From: Actinomycetota bacterium
GTDB lineage: Bacteria; Actinomycetota; Actinomycetes; Nanopelagicales; Nanopelagicaceae
Direction of reading: 5' to 3'
NCBI GenBank assembly: GCA_009698975.1
Contig: WLPB01000067.1
Coordinates: 1 to 6,209, forward strand
DNA: 6,209 nucleotides
Below, piece after piece: positions 1,550 to 6,209 of the stretch. Position 1 is the first letter of the stretch. Each line of letters starts with the position of its first letter. The position numbers were made by a program, and so were the translations under genes. Below the pieces are notes generated by a model. It had not been told where the DNA came from and did not search any database. It saw nothing but the letters and a program-made list of their open reading frames with translations.

Positions 1550-1643
1550 AGAGCCAGAGCCTACCTTTCCTCTTTCTCGCCCCTTGTATTAGACTCGCGG
1601 TTAATGTGCCTCGTCCTGGGGTAAGAGCAACCGGAGGATTTAA
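1550..1643. promoter_or_regulatory. Divergent intergenic region, likely promoters for FKBP gene and MotA-like gene
   Basis: These 94 bases separate two divergently transcribed genes, so each probably starts transcription here. A TANNNT -10-like hexamer (TAGACT, 1590-1595) faces right, and TAATAC (1591 back to 1586) is a weaker candidate facing left. Neither has a convincing TTGACA-like -35 box. The rightward gene has a strong Shine-Dalgarno GGAGGA at 1633-1638, five bases before its ATG. The presence of promoters is inferred from gene layout; the exact boxes are weak guesses. Confidence 0.35.
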
Positions 1644-2426
1644 ATGGCCGTTCGCAAGCCGCAACCGCTTACTGGGTTAGCAGAAAAAATTCGCGCCTTC
1701 ACCTCTCAGTACAAGGTAGAGAACGATCCTTATCTCAATGGTCTCCTCGAGGCTATCGATAGCAAGAAGAATCTACATGTGTGGGCAGAGCTCGACCCGC
1801 TTGATTACTTGCCGCATCCCGAAGGTAAGAGTGGTTTTGCAAAGGCACGTATGGTGCGAGTCCTAACTGTGATCCGAAATGTTCTCGTCTTTGCACCTGT
1901 CGCACTGACATGGGCGGCAGTGAGCGCAGCTACAACTGGATTCTCCAAGTACATTGCGGAAAACGGTGCAGATGTAGTTAACTTTCTCGATTTTTGGCAG
2001 AACGGATATGAAATCCTTGCTGAAGAGTGGCGAATTGGAAATGTCGCTCGTCTGGACTTTCTGATTGTGATGATTGTTATTGCGCTCACTCTCTATGTAT
2101 CCCAAGCCGGCCATACAGTAGATGCCCTTCGTGAAGCGGAAGAGGACGAAATTGACCGCCAGCGCATCGCTCTGGCTCTCGAGATTCATGCTCAATTACA
2201 CGATAAGAAGAAGATTACTGCGGTCAATTTGAATGCGAGCCTAGCTGGAGCGATTTCTCGTCTAGTCTCGGCAACGCACAACCTAGAAGATGCTTCAAAG
2301 GTGATGGAGAAGGCAAGTCGCAAATTACCTAAAGCGCAGACAAGTTCATCGAGCTCATTTTTAGATAGCTTTACATTTAGCGAGACATTTGACGAACCAA
2401 AACCACGAAGGTCTCGCCGTGCGTAA
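1644..2426 (+). CDS. Two-pass membrane protein with cytoplasmic helical tail, candidate MotA/ExbB/ZorA-like channel subunit
   Basis: I do not recognise a named family with certainty. The 260-residue protein has a soluble N-terminus (1-68), a hydrophobic helix at about 73-96 (with RNVLVFAPVALTW), an intervening region rich in acidic and aromatic residues (100-135) and a second helix at about 137-155 (DFLIVMIVIALTLYV). A charged, strongly helical tail follows (160-228), with coiled-coil-like heptads in ISRLVSATHNLEDASKVMEKA, then a Ser-rich stretch and a basic end (KPRRSRRA). Two helices followed by a long cytoplasmic helix is a pattern shared with ExbB/TolQ, MotA and ZorA, though those have three or four helices. 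The main argument for a channel role is its partner: the next gene overlaps it by 8 bases and encodes a MotB-like membrane helix. A strong GGAGGA at 1633-1638 supports this ATG. Alternatives are a structural scaffold or a sensor. The gene itself is certain; the role is inferred. Confidence 0.85.
   Translation: MAVRKPQPLTGLAEKIRAFTSQYKVENDPYLNGLLEAIDSKKNLHVWAELDPLDYLPHPEGKSGFAKARMVRVLTVIRNVLVFAPVALTWAAVSAATTGFSKYIAENGADVVNFLDFWQNGYEILAEEWRIGNVARLDFLIVMIVIALTLYVSQAGHTVDALREAEEDEIDRQRIALALEIHAQLHDKKKITAVNLNASLAGAISRLVSATHNLEDASKVMEKASRKLPKAQTSSSSSFLDSFTFSETFDEPKPRRSRRA
2407..2411 (+). promoter_or_regulatory. Shine-Dalgarno deciding the GTG start of the MotB-like gene
   Basis: GAAGG lies 7 bases upstream of the GTG at 2419 and inside the 3' end of the preceding gene. 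It favours GTG 2419 over the in-frame TTG at 2389, which lacks comparable spacing to a purine-rich motif. The GTG gives the overlap GTGCGTAA with the upstream stop codon, consistent with translational coupling. Confidence 0.5.
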
Positions 2427-2901
2427 AGTTCGCCGTCGCCGCGCGGAAGAGGATTCGACAAGTCAAGGGGGTTGGCTCTTCGCTGACTCTTTCCTCGCAC
2501 TTATGGTGATCTTCCTTGCAACAATTTCATTTGTGCCCTCTCTTGGTGGAGGTCTTACAGGCACCGGAAATATTGGAAACATTGCAGGCGGAAATTACGT
2601 CAAGGGCCTAAATATCGCCTATGAATCATTTGATGCCGCACGGATTAAGAGTGATATCGAAGGCTTCATCGCCGCCGAGAAGCTCCCTCGCAGCTCAGTA
2701 GTGCTCTTTGCCAAGATAGTCGGTGGTTATAACCCTGCACAAGAGAGCGAAGAAGAAGGTAAGTTCAGGGCGCTTTTATTTAGCGCGCAAATTCAAAAAG
2801 CTGAGATTGCTTACTTTTCAAGTGCGAAGATAGATTTAGGTTCAAGTAAGTTGTTAAAGGCAAATCAAATCGTCTTACGATTAACTCTCTCGCCCCAGTA
2901 A
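2419..2901 (+). CDS. Small single-pass membrane protein with MotB/ZorB-like channel helix
   Basis: The 160-residue protein starts with a short, very basic cytoplasmic segment (RKVRRRR), then a single membrane helix at about 18-40 reading GWLFADSFLALMVIFLAT. This is strikingly like the MotB helix YADFMTAMMAFFLV: Asp23 (bases 2485-2487) sits where MotB keeps its proton-binding Asp32, and similar Asp-bearing helices occur in ExbD, TolR and ZorB. After a Gly/Asn-rich linker (43-58) comes a C-terminal domain of about 100 residues. Its apparent strand-helix-strand order is SSVVLFAKIVGG, then a charged helix (SEEEGKFRALLFSAQIQKAE), then QIVLRLTL. It may be a small or degenerate OmpA-like fold, but no clear peptidoglycan-binding NX2LSX2RAX2V motif is visible. 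The GTG start overlaps the upstream stop by 8 bases; a TTG at 2389 would add 10 residues. Together with the 1644 product it probably forms one membrane complex. The ion-channel role is inferred. Confidence 0.85.
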   Translation: MRKVRRRRAEEDSTSQGGWLFADSFLALMVIFLATISFVPSLGGGLTGTGNIGNIAGGNYVKGLNIAYESFDAARIKSDIEGFIAAEKLPRSSVVLFAKIVGGYNPAQESEEEGKFRALLFSAQIQKAEIAYFSSAKIDLGSSKLLKANQIVLRLTLSPQ

Positions 2902-2919: not shown

Positions 2920-3312
2920 TTAAAGGCCTACGATTCCAGCGAGGGTGCCAAAAAATGGAACAACAAACATCATTTTGCCCATAACTGTTTCATCAATATC
3001 TTCTGGGTTGATTTGAGTGCGCACTTCTTTTGCCTCAACTCCGATTCCTGCTGTATCGCTCACGGAGATCACAGCCCCGAGATAGACGCGATCGGTCGAT
3101 GTTGTTTTGCCTTCAGCATCTGATGTTTCAGTAACAATGCGGAAAGCAACTTTATCGCCCACTTTAAAGGAATCTGCGCCGCGATACACAACAAGGCTAG
3201 ATTTCGCAGAGCCAAGAGCGCTCTCAAGCCCACCCTGCGGATGAGAGACTCTAAAGCCGAGCGCGAACAGGACGGCAAAAATCACGGCAACGATGACGAG
3301 TTTGCGCTTCAT
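2920..3312 (-). CDS. Small membrane protein resembling a degenerate signal peptidase I (S26/SipW-like)
   Basis: This 130-residue protein has an N-terminal membrane helix (about 4-20) and a beta-rich outer domain. Several segments line up with SipW/SEC11-type signal peptidases: FKVGDKVAFRI (49-59) with the 'GDvVvf' strand, STDRVYLGAVISV (72-84) with 'iTHRVv.v', and NPEDIDETVMGKMMFVVPFFG (102-122) with the family's C-terminal 'v.GkvvfviPy.Gy' segment. The catalytic features are missing: there is no Ser-Met-X-Pro box after the membrane helix, and the THR-type His is Asp74. If the resemblance is real, it is a non-cleaving relative, perhaps a substrate-binding or assembly partner. It is the last gene of the operon, 20 bases after the previous stop, and its 3' end converges on the MotB-like gene with 18 bases between. 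The Shine-Dalgarno is weak (AGGTTA about 10 bases upstream). The gene is well supported; the family link is tentative. Confidence 0.8.
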   Translation of the reverse strand: MKRKLVIVAVIFAVLFALGFRVSHPQGGLESALGSAKSSLVVYRGADSFKVGDKVAFRIVTETSDAEGKTTSTDRVYLGAVISVSDTAGIGVEAKEVRTQINPEDIDETVMGKMMFVVPFFGTLAGIVGL

Positions 3313-3322
3313 GGGGTGAGTC

Positions 3323-3335
3323 TAACCTAAGGTTA
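3323..3335. repeat. Perfect 13-bp inverted repeat between operon genes
   Basis: TAACCT-A-AGGTTA is a perfect palindrome with 6-base arms centred on 3329. It spans the stop codon of the upstream gene (3335-3333) and the weak ribosome-binding region of the gene starting at 3312. It could be a small operator or a chance palindrome; the loop is too short for a stable hairpin and no T-run follows. Confidence 0.35.
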
Positions 3336-4007
3336 CTTAGAGCGACGAGTGCTTTTTGGCTTTACAGCGCTCTTTTTTACAGGAGTTTTCGACTTTGCGC
3401 GCGTAGGTGTAGCAGTTTTAGCCGGTGTTGAACTCTTTGGTGGCTTTGCACTCTCACGACCGGCCTTAGCGGTAATTGAATTCAGCCATGCTTCGATATC
3501 GGCATCATCTGATACGCGGGAAACTGTTACGCCCGGCGTCACACCTGTGACAACTGGTGTCGCGATCTCAGCTCCCGTAACCATGGTTCTCTTCTTGGAC
3601 TTATTTGTTCTCTTGGCAGAGAGTGATGCAAGAAGAGCTTTGAAAGTGGATGCCCATTTAATGCGGTTGAAGTTGGTGATAAAACGTCGCACAGTAAAAA
3701 TGACGCCAGCAAATCCGGCAGGCTTCGGAGCAGGCTTCGATGCAGGCGCAGATGAGGATCCGCTCTCGCTTGAATTGCTCTCTTCATTAACATTGCCACT
3801 ACCCATGCCGAGCATAAGACGACTTGTGCGGCTATCCGGGCGACCAACTCCGCGCCACGTAGCTACCTCGATGACGCTACCTTGAACCATCTTTCCCACG
3901 ACAATCTTCTGCCCATCGGGAAGATCAATAACAAGTGGTGAGTCAGAGATAGGTAAAGGTAGCTTTGAAACCCTTGGGGAAGAGTTCTGGCTTTCGTTAT
4001 TAGCCAA
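3333..4007 (-). CDS. Unrecognised protein: small conserved-looking N-terminal domain plus histone-H1-like Lys/Pro/Ala tail
   Basis: I do not recognise this protein. From the TTG at 4007 it is 224 residues. Residues 23-67 form a compact, probably beta-rich unit (SPLVIDLPDGQKIVVGKMV, then IEVATWRGVGRPDSRTSRLM) that looks like the conserved part. A Ser/Asn- and Pro-rich linker (70-96) follows, then an amphipathic basic segment (about 97-140, with FTVRRFITNFNRIKWASTF) too polar for a clear membrane span. Next is a Thr/Val-rich stretch with DDADIEAWLNSI, and last a 40-residue tail with 10 Lys, 3 Arg and 6 Pro and almost no acidic residues. Such tails bind nucleic acid in H1-like and mycobacterial HupB proteins, or other polyanions such as wall polymers. 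No signal peptide is seen, so it is probably cytoplasmic. The 4007 start overlaps the collagen-like gene's stop as TTGGCTAA; a TTG at 4055 would give 240 residues. Operon position links it to the surface genes. Confidence 0.78.
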   Translation of the reverse strand: MANNESQNSSPRVSKLPLPISDSPLVIDLPDGQKIVVGKMVQGSVIEVATWRGVGRPDSRTSRLMLGMGSGNVNEESNSSESGSSSAPASKPAPKPAGFAGVIFTVRRFITNFNRIKWASTFKALLASLSAKRTNKSKKRTMVTGAEIATPVVTGVTPGVTVSRVSDDADIEAWLNSITAKAGRESAKPPKSSTPAKTATPTRAKSKTPVKKSAVKPKSTRRSK

Positions 4008-4956
4008 TTGAGAATCCGATTTGATCTGTGTAGTCCGCGGTAGAAATCTCTTCAATAGCTAGCGTGCTGCCAACTGTTGTCTGCACGGCAATGTTGCCAT
4101 TTGTAATCAGGGTCGTAGTAGCAGTTGTGCGTGAAGAAATCTTACAAATTCCTGGAGTAAGTTGATCTGTAAAGGTAAATTGAGGATTAGTGCTCGGCCA
4201 TGGCGCTGATGTGATTACCTTTGAGCAGACGATGAGATCACCTGGTTGGTACATGCGAGTAGTGCTCAATGAAACTGTTGGAGCAATTGTGATGTAGATC
4301 GAGAAGGTGAGGTTATTACACAATGCATCAACATCTCCATCAGTTACCCGTGTATCGCCTACGGTGAATTGAGAGAAGACGAAGTCATATCCGTTGTATT
4401 TGCGCTTCACATCAAAGGCAACAACGCCATCTGTATCGCATGCGCCAACAGAGATGATTCCTTGACCGTATGTCAGAGATCCGCCACCACCGCCACCACC
4501 GTTAATTCCGTTGGTACCGTTTGTGCCATTCGCTCCTGCCGGACCTGGAAGGCCGTTTGCGCCATTACATATATATGTCACCGTGCCAGTAGCATCGGTT
4601 AACTTCGTACCGCCATTGGTGCATGTGCCTTGAACGCCGGTAAATGCAGCTGAGGCAACGCTTATTCCATCTTTGCCATCAACACCATCTTTGCCATCAA
4701 CACCGGCAACGCCTGGGGCGCCATCTAATCCGTCGACTCCGTTAAGTCCGATCAAACCATCTTTTCCAGCAACTCCTGCTGGGCCTGGTGCGCCTTCTGG
4801 GCCAACAAGAAGTGCGAGAACTTGGTTGAGGTTTGCAGCAGCTTGCTTAGTACCAAAGAAATAATCTTGAGAAGTTTCAGGGTTCGTTGTATCCGCGTAT
4901 GCCACACCGATTCTCGTCAACGAGAGGAGCAAGAGGGCGACGACTAACTTCTTCAT
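4000..4956 (-). CDS. Secreted collagen-like (Gly-X-Y repeat) surface protein
   Basis: This is an exported structural protein of 318 residues. The signal peptide covers 1-21 (KK, hydrophobic core, AYA before Asp22). A short helix-prone region (22-51) may trimerise the chain. Residues 52-99 are 16 uninterrupted Gly-X-Y triplets, including the repeat GVDGKDGVDGKDG. An insert (100-131) carries two cysteines, CTNGGTK (Cys112) and TYICNG (Cys130), a type often seen between bacterial collagen blocks. A second block of seven triplets (132-152) runs into a seven-glycine hinge (153-159). A C-terminal domain (160-318), Thr/Val-rich and probably a beta-sandwich, has four more cysteines (173, 213, 244, 271). 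No LPXTG motif or C-terminal anchor is present, so attachment to the cell is unexplained. ATG and upstream TGA overlap as ATGA, and GGAG at 4971-4968 is 11 bases upstream. Bacterial collagen-like proteins form trimeric stalks in adhesion or spore/surface filaments; the role here is unknown. Confidence 0.9.
   Translation of the reverse strand: MKKLVVALLLLSLTRIGVAYADTTNPETSQDYFFGTKQAAANLNQVLALLVGPEGAPGPAGVAGKDGLIGLNGVDGLDGAPGVAGVDGKDGVDGKDGISVASAAFTGVQGTCTNGGTKLTDATGTVTYICNGANGLPGPAGANGTNGTNGINGGGGGGGSLTYGQGIISVGACDTDGVVAFDVKRKYNGYDFVFSQFTVGDTRVTDGDVDALCNNLTFSIYITIAPTVSLSTTRMYQPGDLIVCSKVITSAPWPSTNPQFTFTDQLTPGICKISSRTTATTTLITNGNIAVQTTVGSTLAIEEISTADYTDQIGFSIG
4667..4702. repeat. 18-bp perfect tandem repeat in collagen region
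   Basis: Two identical 18-base units (4667-4684 and 4685-4702) lie inside the first Gly-X-Y block and encode two copies of a six-residue Gly-Val-Asp-Gly-Lys-Asp-type unit. Identity at every base, including third positions, points to recent duplication; the copy number may vary between strains without shifting the frame. Confidence 0.85.
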
Positions 4957-6209
4957 GGCTCTATTATCTCCAGTTTCTCCTCAAAAGAGAACTTTGCTTC
5001 GTTAGATGAGTAGATTGCGCTATAAATCGCGTGCAGAGCCGGTGCAATACCCGCCAATAAGAGCAGCAAGCTGGCTCTCTGGTCGGTTAGTAAGGGTTCA
5101 GAGGAGATCTGGCGGAAAATGATGAAAGTGATGCCAGCGGTGATGGCTGATTCGAGCAGAATATTTCTAGCCAATCGGTCAGCGCGCAGGAATTTAATTG
5201 AACCGAATCGGATGAAGACCAGGAAGTACGGCATGCCAAAAATAAGAGCAACCAATAGCGCCTTAGATGGATTTTCAATCCAGATATAGACAAAGGCGAA
5301 CACTATGGCTGTGACAAGTAGCGCTGTAATTGGCGAAGCAACTCTCGCGATAAAAAATGATTCGTCGCGCACTTCACCCGAGCTCTTTGAATTAAGAACT
5401 ATGCCATCAGCAAAACCACGAACAAGTAAGAGAGCGGCAACGATGAGAATATGCGCCAGCGAAATTTGTCGTGATTGTTGTTCAGTGAAGATCACACTAC
5501 CGACAAGGGCTTGCCCAAGATAGAAAACTGACGCACCTACGAGGCTAGCTCCAATTACACCTACCACTTTAGTGGAATCAGATTCTGAAGAATTCTGAGA
5601 AGAAAAATCTCGTCCAATCACTTCACGCAATATCGAAGCGAAGAGGGATGGTCCTGCCCAAGCAATTCCGACTGCAAGTGCAATCAGGAAATCCTTAAAG
5701 CTAGTGAGATTGCCGGTTAATAGTTGAATCGCCCAGAAACCAAGAGTGGCAGTCAGTCCTGAAAACGAATCAAGAATTGCTATTGCTGCAACGACTATAA
5801 AGATTGTCATCGGAGTAGCTGCAATGCCATTATTTCTACTCACTTCTACTGAAGCGATGACACCGGCAATAGCTCCAACAAGCGGAGCAACACCGTAGGT
5901 TTTTTTAGAGATACGGTGGAGTAGCTCTCCTTCACGAATGAGTAAGAAACGCATCAGCGATTGATTCAGCGAAGTGATTGCGCGAACACGGACCCGATAT
6001 GGGGCTTCTTCAAGTCGCACCCAAAAATTCTTATCACTTTCGATAATTGAATCCGTTAAACGAGGCAGCACTTGCTCGGACTTAAATGGAATATATGAAT
6101 ACTTCCGTGCACGAATTGTTGAGATAATTCCGGTGAGAAATACAAAGATTGCAACGATGAGCGTGAGATCAATCAGACTTGAGCCAGCTGTGCGAGTTTG
6201 TGCCTCAAT
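4953..6209 (-). CDS. Large multi-pass integral membrane protein, N-terminus beyond window edge
   Basis: I do not recognise the family. The frame is open from the stop (TGA, 4955-4953) to the right edge, giving at least 419 residues. The GTG at 6071 is probably internal, because about 46 more codons precede it without a stop and encode a further hydrophobic helix (SLIDLTLIVAIFVFLTG). About ten or eleven membrane segments are visible. Counting from the GTG they lie near 60-78, 85-100, 104-118, 124-147, 168-194, 203-221, 242-264, 270-288, 303-319 and 330-349. Between the first helix and the rest is a roughly 80-residue soluble, charged region (KNFWVRLEEAPYRVRVRAI). There is no obvious ABC, MFS or glycosyltransferase signature. 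Its stop overlaps the collagen-like gene's start as ATGA, so the two are translationally coupled. It could be a transporter, a flippase or the membrane base of the surface structure; I cannot choose. The C-terminus is short and acidic. Confidence 0.82.
   Translation of the reverse strand: MEAQTRTAGSSLIDLTLIVAIFVFLTGIISTIRARKYSYIPFKSEQVLPRLTDSIIESDKNFWVRLEEAPYRVRVRAITSLNQSLMRFLLIREGELLHRISKKTYGVAPLVGAIAGVIASVEVSRNNGIAATPMTIFIVVAAIAILDSFSGLTATLGFWAIQLLTGNLTSFKDFLIALAVGIAWAGPSLFASILREVIGRDFSSQNSSESDSTKVVGVIGASLVGASVFYLGQALVGSVIFTEQQSRQISLAHILIVAALLLVRGFADGIVLNSKSSGEVRDESFFIARVASPITALLVTAIVFAFVYIWIENPSKALLVALIFGMPYFLVFIRFGSIKFLRADRLARNILLESAITAGITFIIFRQISSEPLLTDQRASLLLLLAGIAPALHAIYSAIYSSNEAKFSFEEKLEIIEP

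Follow-up and report, generated by a model that had tools for sequence, protein, structure and literature searches.

Two small genes overlap by a few bases, always occur together where we have looked, and belong to no curated family: what do their products do? The question is raised by a stretch of 6,209 nucleotides, here called the window, from a Nanopelagicaceae member of the Actinomycetota (assembly GCA_009698975.1, contig WLPB01000067.1). An earlier interpretation, the sequence-only reading, had likened the genes, which we call A and B, to MotA/MotB and to ZorA/ZorB, and had proposed an unassigned actinobacterial motor. The explanation that we favour, with somewhat more belief than doubt, is that AB forms a distant, lineage-restricted family of its own among the 5:2-type ion-driven complexes, coupled to the display of surface fibres in Nanopelagicales. 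It rests on the pairing of the genes, an invariant aspartate (Asp) in B, the match of the B helix to a MotB profile, a modelled OmpA-like domain, and the association of the pair with surface-protein loci. The features of the pair are the following:

1633..1637, plus strand: GGAGG, likely ribosome-binding site of gene A (sequence)
1644..2426, plus strand: gene A, 260 amino acids (translation, AlphaFold2 model, aligned relatives)
1851..1943, plus strand: first membrane segment of A, residues about 70-100 (hydropathy, model)
2028..2120, plus strand: second membrane segment of A, residues about 129-159, which opens the long helix 131-186 (hydropathy, model)
2419..2901, plus strand: gene B, 160 amino acids, GTG start, 8-base overlap with A (translation, relatives)
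2470..2538, plus strand: membrane helix of B, GWLFADSFLALMVIFLATISFVP (relatives, model, MotB profile alignment)
2485..2487, plus strand: codon of Asp23, which lies inside the membrane helix of B and is invariant (49 of 49 aligned rows; alignment with the MotB Asp)
2602..2892, plus strand: outer domain of B, beta-alpha-beta-alpha-beta-beta, OmpA-like in the model (model, structure searches)

The homologues found at an expect value (E) of at most 0.001 number 995 proteins for B and 876 for A, with the best 120 of each listed; since both genes are conserved in relatives, they are not chance reading frames. A scan of genome contigs found 29 loci with B, at identities as low as 32 percent; in all 29, A is the gene immediately upstream, with a spacing of -11 to +33 bases given the start codons chosen. 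A second set has both genes at each of its 24 loci, several of them common to the first set; by our own comparison, the two sets combined contain 40 distinct loci, and the pair is present in all of them. The overlap of 8 bases claimed for the window is exact: it spans positions 2419-2426, B running from its GTG at 2419 to a stop codon that ends at 2901.

The names attached to relatives include Candidatus Planktophila, Candidatus Nanopelagicaceae, Candidatus Nanopelagicales and uncultured actinobacteria, and three loci are labelled Streptomycetaceae; the origin of the relatives appears to be Nanopelagicales. The profile of A matches 23 of 151 genomes of the order, and that of B, 14 of 101 genomes of the family. 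Among 396 genomes of the phylum, A matches two, the centre genome (G002) and G534, and nothing convincing is found outside the order: the match in G534 covers 54 residues at E 0.008, and was taken as noise. The pair is lineage-restricted and patchy, though the completeness of the scanned genomes is not stated. When the most divergent B tried, that of L044, was used as a protein query, 76 proteins were retrieved, the sole organism name attached being freshwater metagenome. The pair is single-copy in each of 15 carrier genomes; genome G144 contains two different AB pairs, on contigs C86 and C94 (L035 and L051).

The B protein has a single hydrophobic segment by hydropathy, at residues 15-48 or so, with Asp23 within it. 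Its AlphaFold2 model (mean predicted local distance difference test, pLDDT, 75; predicted template modelling score, pTM, 0.56) combines a low-confidence membrane helix, residues 18-38, with a confident beta-alpha-beta-alpha-beta-beta domain, residues 62-158. Asp23 is invariant in the 49 aligned B proteins, as are W19, F32, L33, A34, S37, F38 and P40, and in both A and B conservation is strongest in or next to the membrane parts. A profile comparison aligns the B helix with that of actinobacterial MotB, Asp on Asp, at E 1.8e-6; as a control, 2 of 200 permutations scored as high. These features suggest a single-helix subunit of the MotB/ExbD/ZorB type, its invariant Asp near the predicted cytoplasmic end of the helix. 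The sequence-only reading, which had described one membrane helix with an Asp, is borne out here by both hydropathy and model, and what would speak against it, homologues of the small protein without the Asp or without the partner, was not seen where it could be examined: the Asp is lacking in 0 of 49 aligned B proteins, and B occurs without A in 0 of 40 distinct loci.

The modelled outer domain of B most resembles OmpA-like peptidoglycan-binding domains. The peptidoglycan-binding domain of SiiA ranks first in Foldseek, and OmpA and MotB domains rank high too, at values below firm significance: no Foldseek E reaches 0.001, and Z is below 8. Residues that bind peptidoglycan are not strictly conserved among the aligned rows. 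At the level of sequence, curated families offer no usable match for either gene in the Pfam, NCBIfam and PADLOC scans, and B matches 0 Pfam families at E up to 10, MotB_plug (PF13677) included. Its best PDB profile match is 8qyd_F, which we take to be ZorB, at a non-significant E of 0.22-0.26. This match, together with the patchy distribution in 23 of 151 genomes, would fit the idea that AB is an anti-phage defence module like ZorAB. We consider this very improbable: neither A nor B matches any PADLOC model at E up to 10, those of ZorA and ZorB included; among the neighbouring genes read, none stood out as a Zorya effector, no profile search aimed at effectors having been made; and the neighbours are surface and export genes.

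As for A, hydropathy places two hydrophobic segments at residues 70-100 and 129-159, approximately, and the AlphaFold2 model (mean pLDDT 77, pTM 0.51) has helices at 65-81, 84-107 and 131-186, a low-confidence helix at 193-226, and residues 228-250 mostly at pLDDT below 50. Probably, the N-terminus is cytoplasmic, two helices cross the membrane, and the helical tail is cytoplasmic again. This agrees with the two-helix protein with a cytoplasmic tail described earlier from the sequence; the tail is modest in the window and longer in some relatives, where the length of A varies from 221 to 472 residues (frames, stop to stop). In all 55 aligned rows, R78, P85, V86, T89, W90, A96, F100, N113, W118, G121, W129, A135, D138 and I146 are invariant: they sit within the membrane helices and the short loop that connects them. 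Upstream of A, and divergent from it, the window has a gene for an FKBP-type peptidyl-prolyl isomerase (1034-1549, Pfam FKBP_C 1.7e-19), and in several close relatives such a gene lies directly upstream of A.

We now turn to the neighbourhood. A Pfam scan of the eight open reading frames of the window agrees with the earlier statement that flagellar, TonB/Tol and Zorya genes are missing nearby, but that statement overlooked the whole right flank, 2920-6209, which is the start, entirely on the minus strand, of a conserved surface-protein locus:

2920..3312, minus strand: small membrane protein of cluster 3, the gene that opens the locus (neighbour clustering)
3333..4055, minus strand: cluster 4 protein with the motif LPLPISDSPLVIDLPDGQKIVVGKM, start codon uncertain (neighbour clustering)
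4000..4956, minus strand: collagen-like exported protein, cluster 5, 318 amino acids (Pfam Collagen, 2e-9)
4953..6209, minus strand: multi-pass membrane protein of cluster 6, truncated at the end of the window (clustering, profile comparison)

The clusters come from genes called in 45 entries, 41 of them distinct, the window included; clustering was single-linkage, and may loosely join repeat-rich proteins. On longer contigs (L001, L002, L004, L007, L011, L016, L021 and others) the row extends to a signal peptidase, cluster 8, and also holds small exported proteins of cluster 0, one to four in number, with cluster 7 in several; in L022, L024, L027 and L029, it is found on the opposite side of A. 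The same composition, a signal peptidase of SipW/archaeal type with exported subunits, collagen-like and multi-pass proteins, was observed in L001, L002, L004, L007, L011 and L016, and also in L021, L022, L024, L027 and L029. The cluster 8 protein of L011 matches TIGR02228 above cut-off (2e-17), and the SipW model below it (3e-7). Cluster 0 subunits bear a signature like AANI-SLNSG-EFGQG-ACD, and the C-terminal domain of cluster 5 is related to them (probability 95.5, E 1.5e-8); four of the subunits were tested, and none of them has a Pfam or NCBIfam match above cut-off, or matches a TasA or SipW-cognate family. Cluster 6 has, in one relative, about nine hydrophobic segments after a signal sequence. 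The window copy of cluster 4 (3333-4055) has no Pfam match; its motif is strongly conserved, with the form SDSPLVIDLPDGQKLVIGKMSQGSVIEVATWRGTGRPDSRTSRLMLGM in relatives, and the protein has a basic tail. Cluster 3 might derive from a signal peptidase, but in a comparison with cluster 8 only 26 C-terminal columns align, at probability 64. Taken as a whole, the locus has the look of a fibre or surface-layer system not described before. The TasA/SipW matrix-fibre operon of Bacillus has a SipW signal peptidase alongside exported subunits; the fibre locus shares with it a SipW/archaeal-type peptidase beside several small exported subunits, and differs in also having a multi-pass membrane protein and, with AB, a motor-like pair.

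How regular is this company? Of the 41 distinct entries, 30 contain one or more of clusters 0 and 3-8, L042 and L049 being counted solely for a collagen-like match. In L042, L043, L049 and L050, a co-directional row runs collagen-like protein, cluster 27, A, B, which in L043 and L050 puts the collagen-like protein two genes upstream of A; the Pfam Collagen match is 5.2e-11 in L043, and between 3.8e-17 and 4.9e-38 in the other three. Elsewhere the neighbours are giants: proteins of 877-3273 amino acids, some cut short, adjoin A or B in L011, L020, L022, L028, L029, L041 and L044, and may be adhesins. The one in L028, an entry outside the 30, belongs to cluster 14 and adjoins B; two cluster 14 proteins scanned have PA14, He_PIG, fn3 or lectin-type domains. 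A protein of cluster 41 follows A and B in L041 (2232 amino acids), L044 (2336) and L047 (329, to the contig end), and the giant proteins directly downstream of B at L041:3-6698 and L044:8994-16001 contain DUF285 and Big_3_5 (bacterial Ig-like) domains, DUF285 being a family named from Mycoplasma. In the window itself no giant protein is seen, its own neighbour being the collagen-like protein of 318 amino acids. By our tally, which adds L028, L041, L043, L044, L047 and L050 to the 30, a surface-type locus, collagen-like or giant repeat proteins lie near AB in 36 of 41 distinct entries; contig ends truncate the neighbourhoods of L006, L018 and L051, and L026 and L019, the latter with one gene left upstream of A, have no surface-type locus genes beside AB. 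This tabulation narrows the proposal of an unassigned motor to an association with surface-protein genes, a context that the sequence-only reading had missed.

The association was also tested genome-wide, by scoring A and cluster 6 in the same 151 genomes of the order. With strong matches to cluster 6 (E < 1e-50, a cut-off set after viewing the list), cluster 6 is found in 17 genomes and A in 23: 12 have both, 11 only A, 5 only cluster 6, and 123 neither (Fisher p 3e-8). Relaxing the cut-off to E <= 0.001, where many cluster 6 matches span just a short part of the profile, gives 36 genomes with cluster 6: 13 have both, 10 only A, 23 only cluster 6, and 105 neither (p 2e-4). The two genes are on the same contig, at most 10 kilobases apart, in 9 of the 12 genomes, and on different contigs in 3. 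The co-occurrence of AB with the surface locus is significant, and not obligatory.

Several results weigh against our explanation. One set concerns the fibre locus: four loci (L123, L125, L126 and L127) carry it without AB, A not having been found elsewhere in those genomes, and a fifth genome with the locus and no AB seen, L124, is represented by a short contig. At the locus edge, those four have genes of cluster 15 (response-regulator-like) or cluster 12 (sensor-like). The other set concerns A, which has no match to PF01618 (MotA_ExbB) at E up to 10, and whose alignment of 55 rows, compared with 20 rows of actinobacterial MotA, yields an hhalign probability of 0.7. The likeness to ExbB/TolQ is only faint, and the MotA side is weak: in Foldseek, 10 of 50 rows for the A model are ExbB/ExbD or Tol complexes (5zfp, 9ddm, 6ye4, 5sv0, 7ajq, 5sv1 and 8odt), with E 0.5-2 and template modelling scores of at most 0.30, ranked behind SH3BP5 and others. 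VIA-align returned unspecific long-helix proteins, with no ExbB, TolQ, MotA, GldL or ZorA among 50 rows, a result that excludes nothing. Proteins with PF01618 are found in 0 of 15 AB carrier genomes, versus 8 of 14 control genomes. The few weak family matches of A (E of at least 0.06, all below cut-off) are to unrelated families, and the matches in its PDB profile search, at E 0.08 or worse, were confined to designed helical proteins, plectin and dynein; none was retained. The comparison with MotAB and ZorAB is supported for B, by its Asp helix and modelled OmpA-like domain, and is weak for A, where there are only low-scoring structure rows; A, having no detectable homology to MotA/ExbB, is assigned to the motor class by partnership and topology.

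Each set invites a different explanation. The fibre loci without AB, the variety of surface loci that AB adjoins, and the absence of any in L019 and L026 would fit a 5:2-type ion-driven complex serving the cell envelope at large, in division, wall remodelling or a Tol-like role, the surface genes being neighbours for other reasons. We think this unlikely: it leaves the genome-wide co-occurrence of A with the fibre locus to be accounted for, as well as an adjacency that recurs in varied arrangements, such as the collagen-like rows with cluster 27 and the order A, B, cluster 41. The lack of detectable MotA/ExbB homology in A would in turn suit a scaffold that conducts nothing, a wall-anchored platform of two proteins on which surface proteins would be held or sorted with no flow of ions, the more so as exported proteins presumably require attachment to the wall. 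Such a scaffold seems to us quite improbable, given an Asp that is invariant in the B helix and aligned with the ion-binding Asp of MotB, and given that the invariant residues of A are concentrated in the membrane helices and the loop between them.

Returning to an ion-driven complex coupled to surface fibres, the nearest parallels are found among systems that handle adhesins. According to PMC6272769 and PMC12607715, SiiA and SiiB of Salmonella SPI-4 form a proton channel of the Mot/Exb/Tol family that controls retention of the giant adhesin SiiE, and SiiA carries a peptidoglycan-binding domain. Like SiiA, whose domain is the first Foldseek match, B is built of a single membrane helix, a linker and an outer domain, and in some relatives AB stands beside giant proteins with Ig-like or similar repeats; unlike SiiAB, it has a signal peptidase and exported subunits as neighbours and a presumed single-membrane host, and the two share no detected sequence family. 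No type I secretion genes were noticed near AB, no search aimed at them having been made. A has two membrane helices, as has GldL of the gliding and type IX secretion machinery. According to PMC9389320, GldLM drives the movement of the adhesin SprB and has no obvious homology to MotAB; GldL, like A, has a cytoplasmic tail, a long one, whereas GldM has a long periplasmic shaft of four domains where B has one short domain. ZorAB, as described in PMC11890865, combines its subunits in a 5:2 ratio; the tail of ZorA is elongated, and ZorB binds peptidoglycan. AB resembles it in the Asp-bearing B helix, the peptidoglycan-binding-like outer domain and the cytoplasmic tail of A, and differs in having no PADLOC match and in lying amid surface-protein genes. 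With MotA/MotB, ExbB/ExbD and TolQ/TolR it shares the adjacent gene pair and the B helix aligned with MotB, but no match to PF01618 or PF13677, nor any MotA-like profile match for A, which has just two membrane segments. By sequence, AB would not be placed in the SiiAB, GldLM or ZorAB families; it shares the plan of B with SiiA and ZorB, and its surface-protein company with SiiAB. It would work most like an adhesin-linked 5:2 motor. PMC12505986 likewise states that B subunits were hard to detect by homology and that their assignment came from closeness to MotA homologues; ZorAB and GldLM are mentioned there as remote homologues yet to be placed. A further motor-like pair, unassigned to a known system, was observed in another actinobacterial genome: a MotA_ExbB-type protein of 451 amino acids (L116:2174-3529), followed by a protein of 403 with an ExbD-like start and repeats (3536-4747).

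A mechanism can be proposed on these parallels. Two B helices would be seated in a ring of A subunits, and ions of a proton or sodium gradient would pass Asp23 of B, turning or straining the ring. The OmpA-like outer domain of B would dock to the cell wall, while the cytoplasmic helices of A might serve as a stalk that couples to the ring, or anchors it. The output would be the assembly, retention or pulling of the long surface proteins encoded nearby, as in SiiAB/SiiE or GldLM/SprB, the action on the fibres being possibly mechanical, possibly regulatory. Nanopelagicales are taken as single-membrane actinobacteria, and are not known to have flagella. A bolder version, which we regard as doubtful, gives AB the part of a novel ion-driven motor in these single-membrane cells, one by which collagen-like fibres and giant adhesins on the surface are moved, extruded or put under tension; if true, actinobacteria would have a machine for gliding or for handling fibres such as has not yet been described in them.

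In the titles and abstract beginnings of the literature covered, with bioRxiv preprints and most subscription journals outside, neither the AB pair nor the fibre locus is described in Nanopelagicales, and none of the terms looked up occurs in PMC11039613, on the secreted proteome of freshwater genome-reduced bacteria. AB is a testable candidate for energised surface handling in abundant freshwater bacteria, where it may have a role in attachment, in the avoidance of grazers or phages, or in movement. It would extend adhesin-linked motors, represented by SiiAB and GldLM in double-membrane bacteria, to a presumed single-membrane lineage, with an A subunit that would belong to an extended motor class without being recognisably related to MotA.
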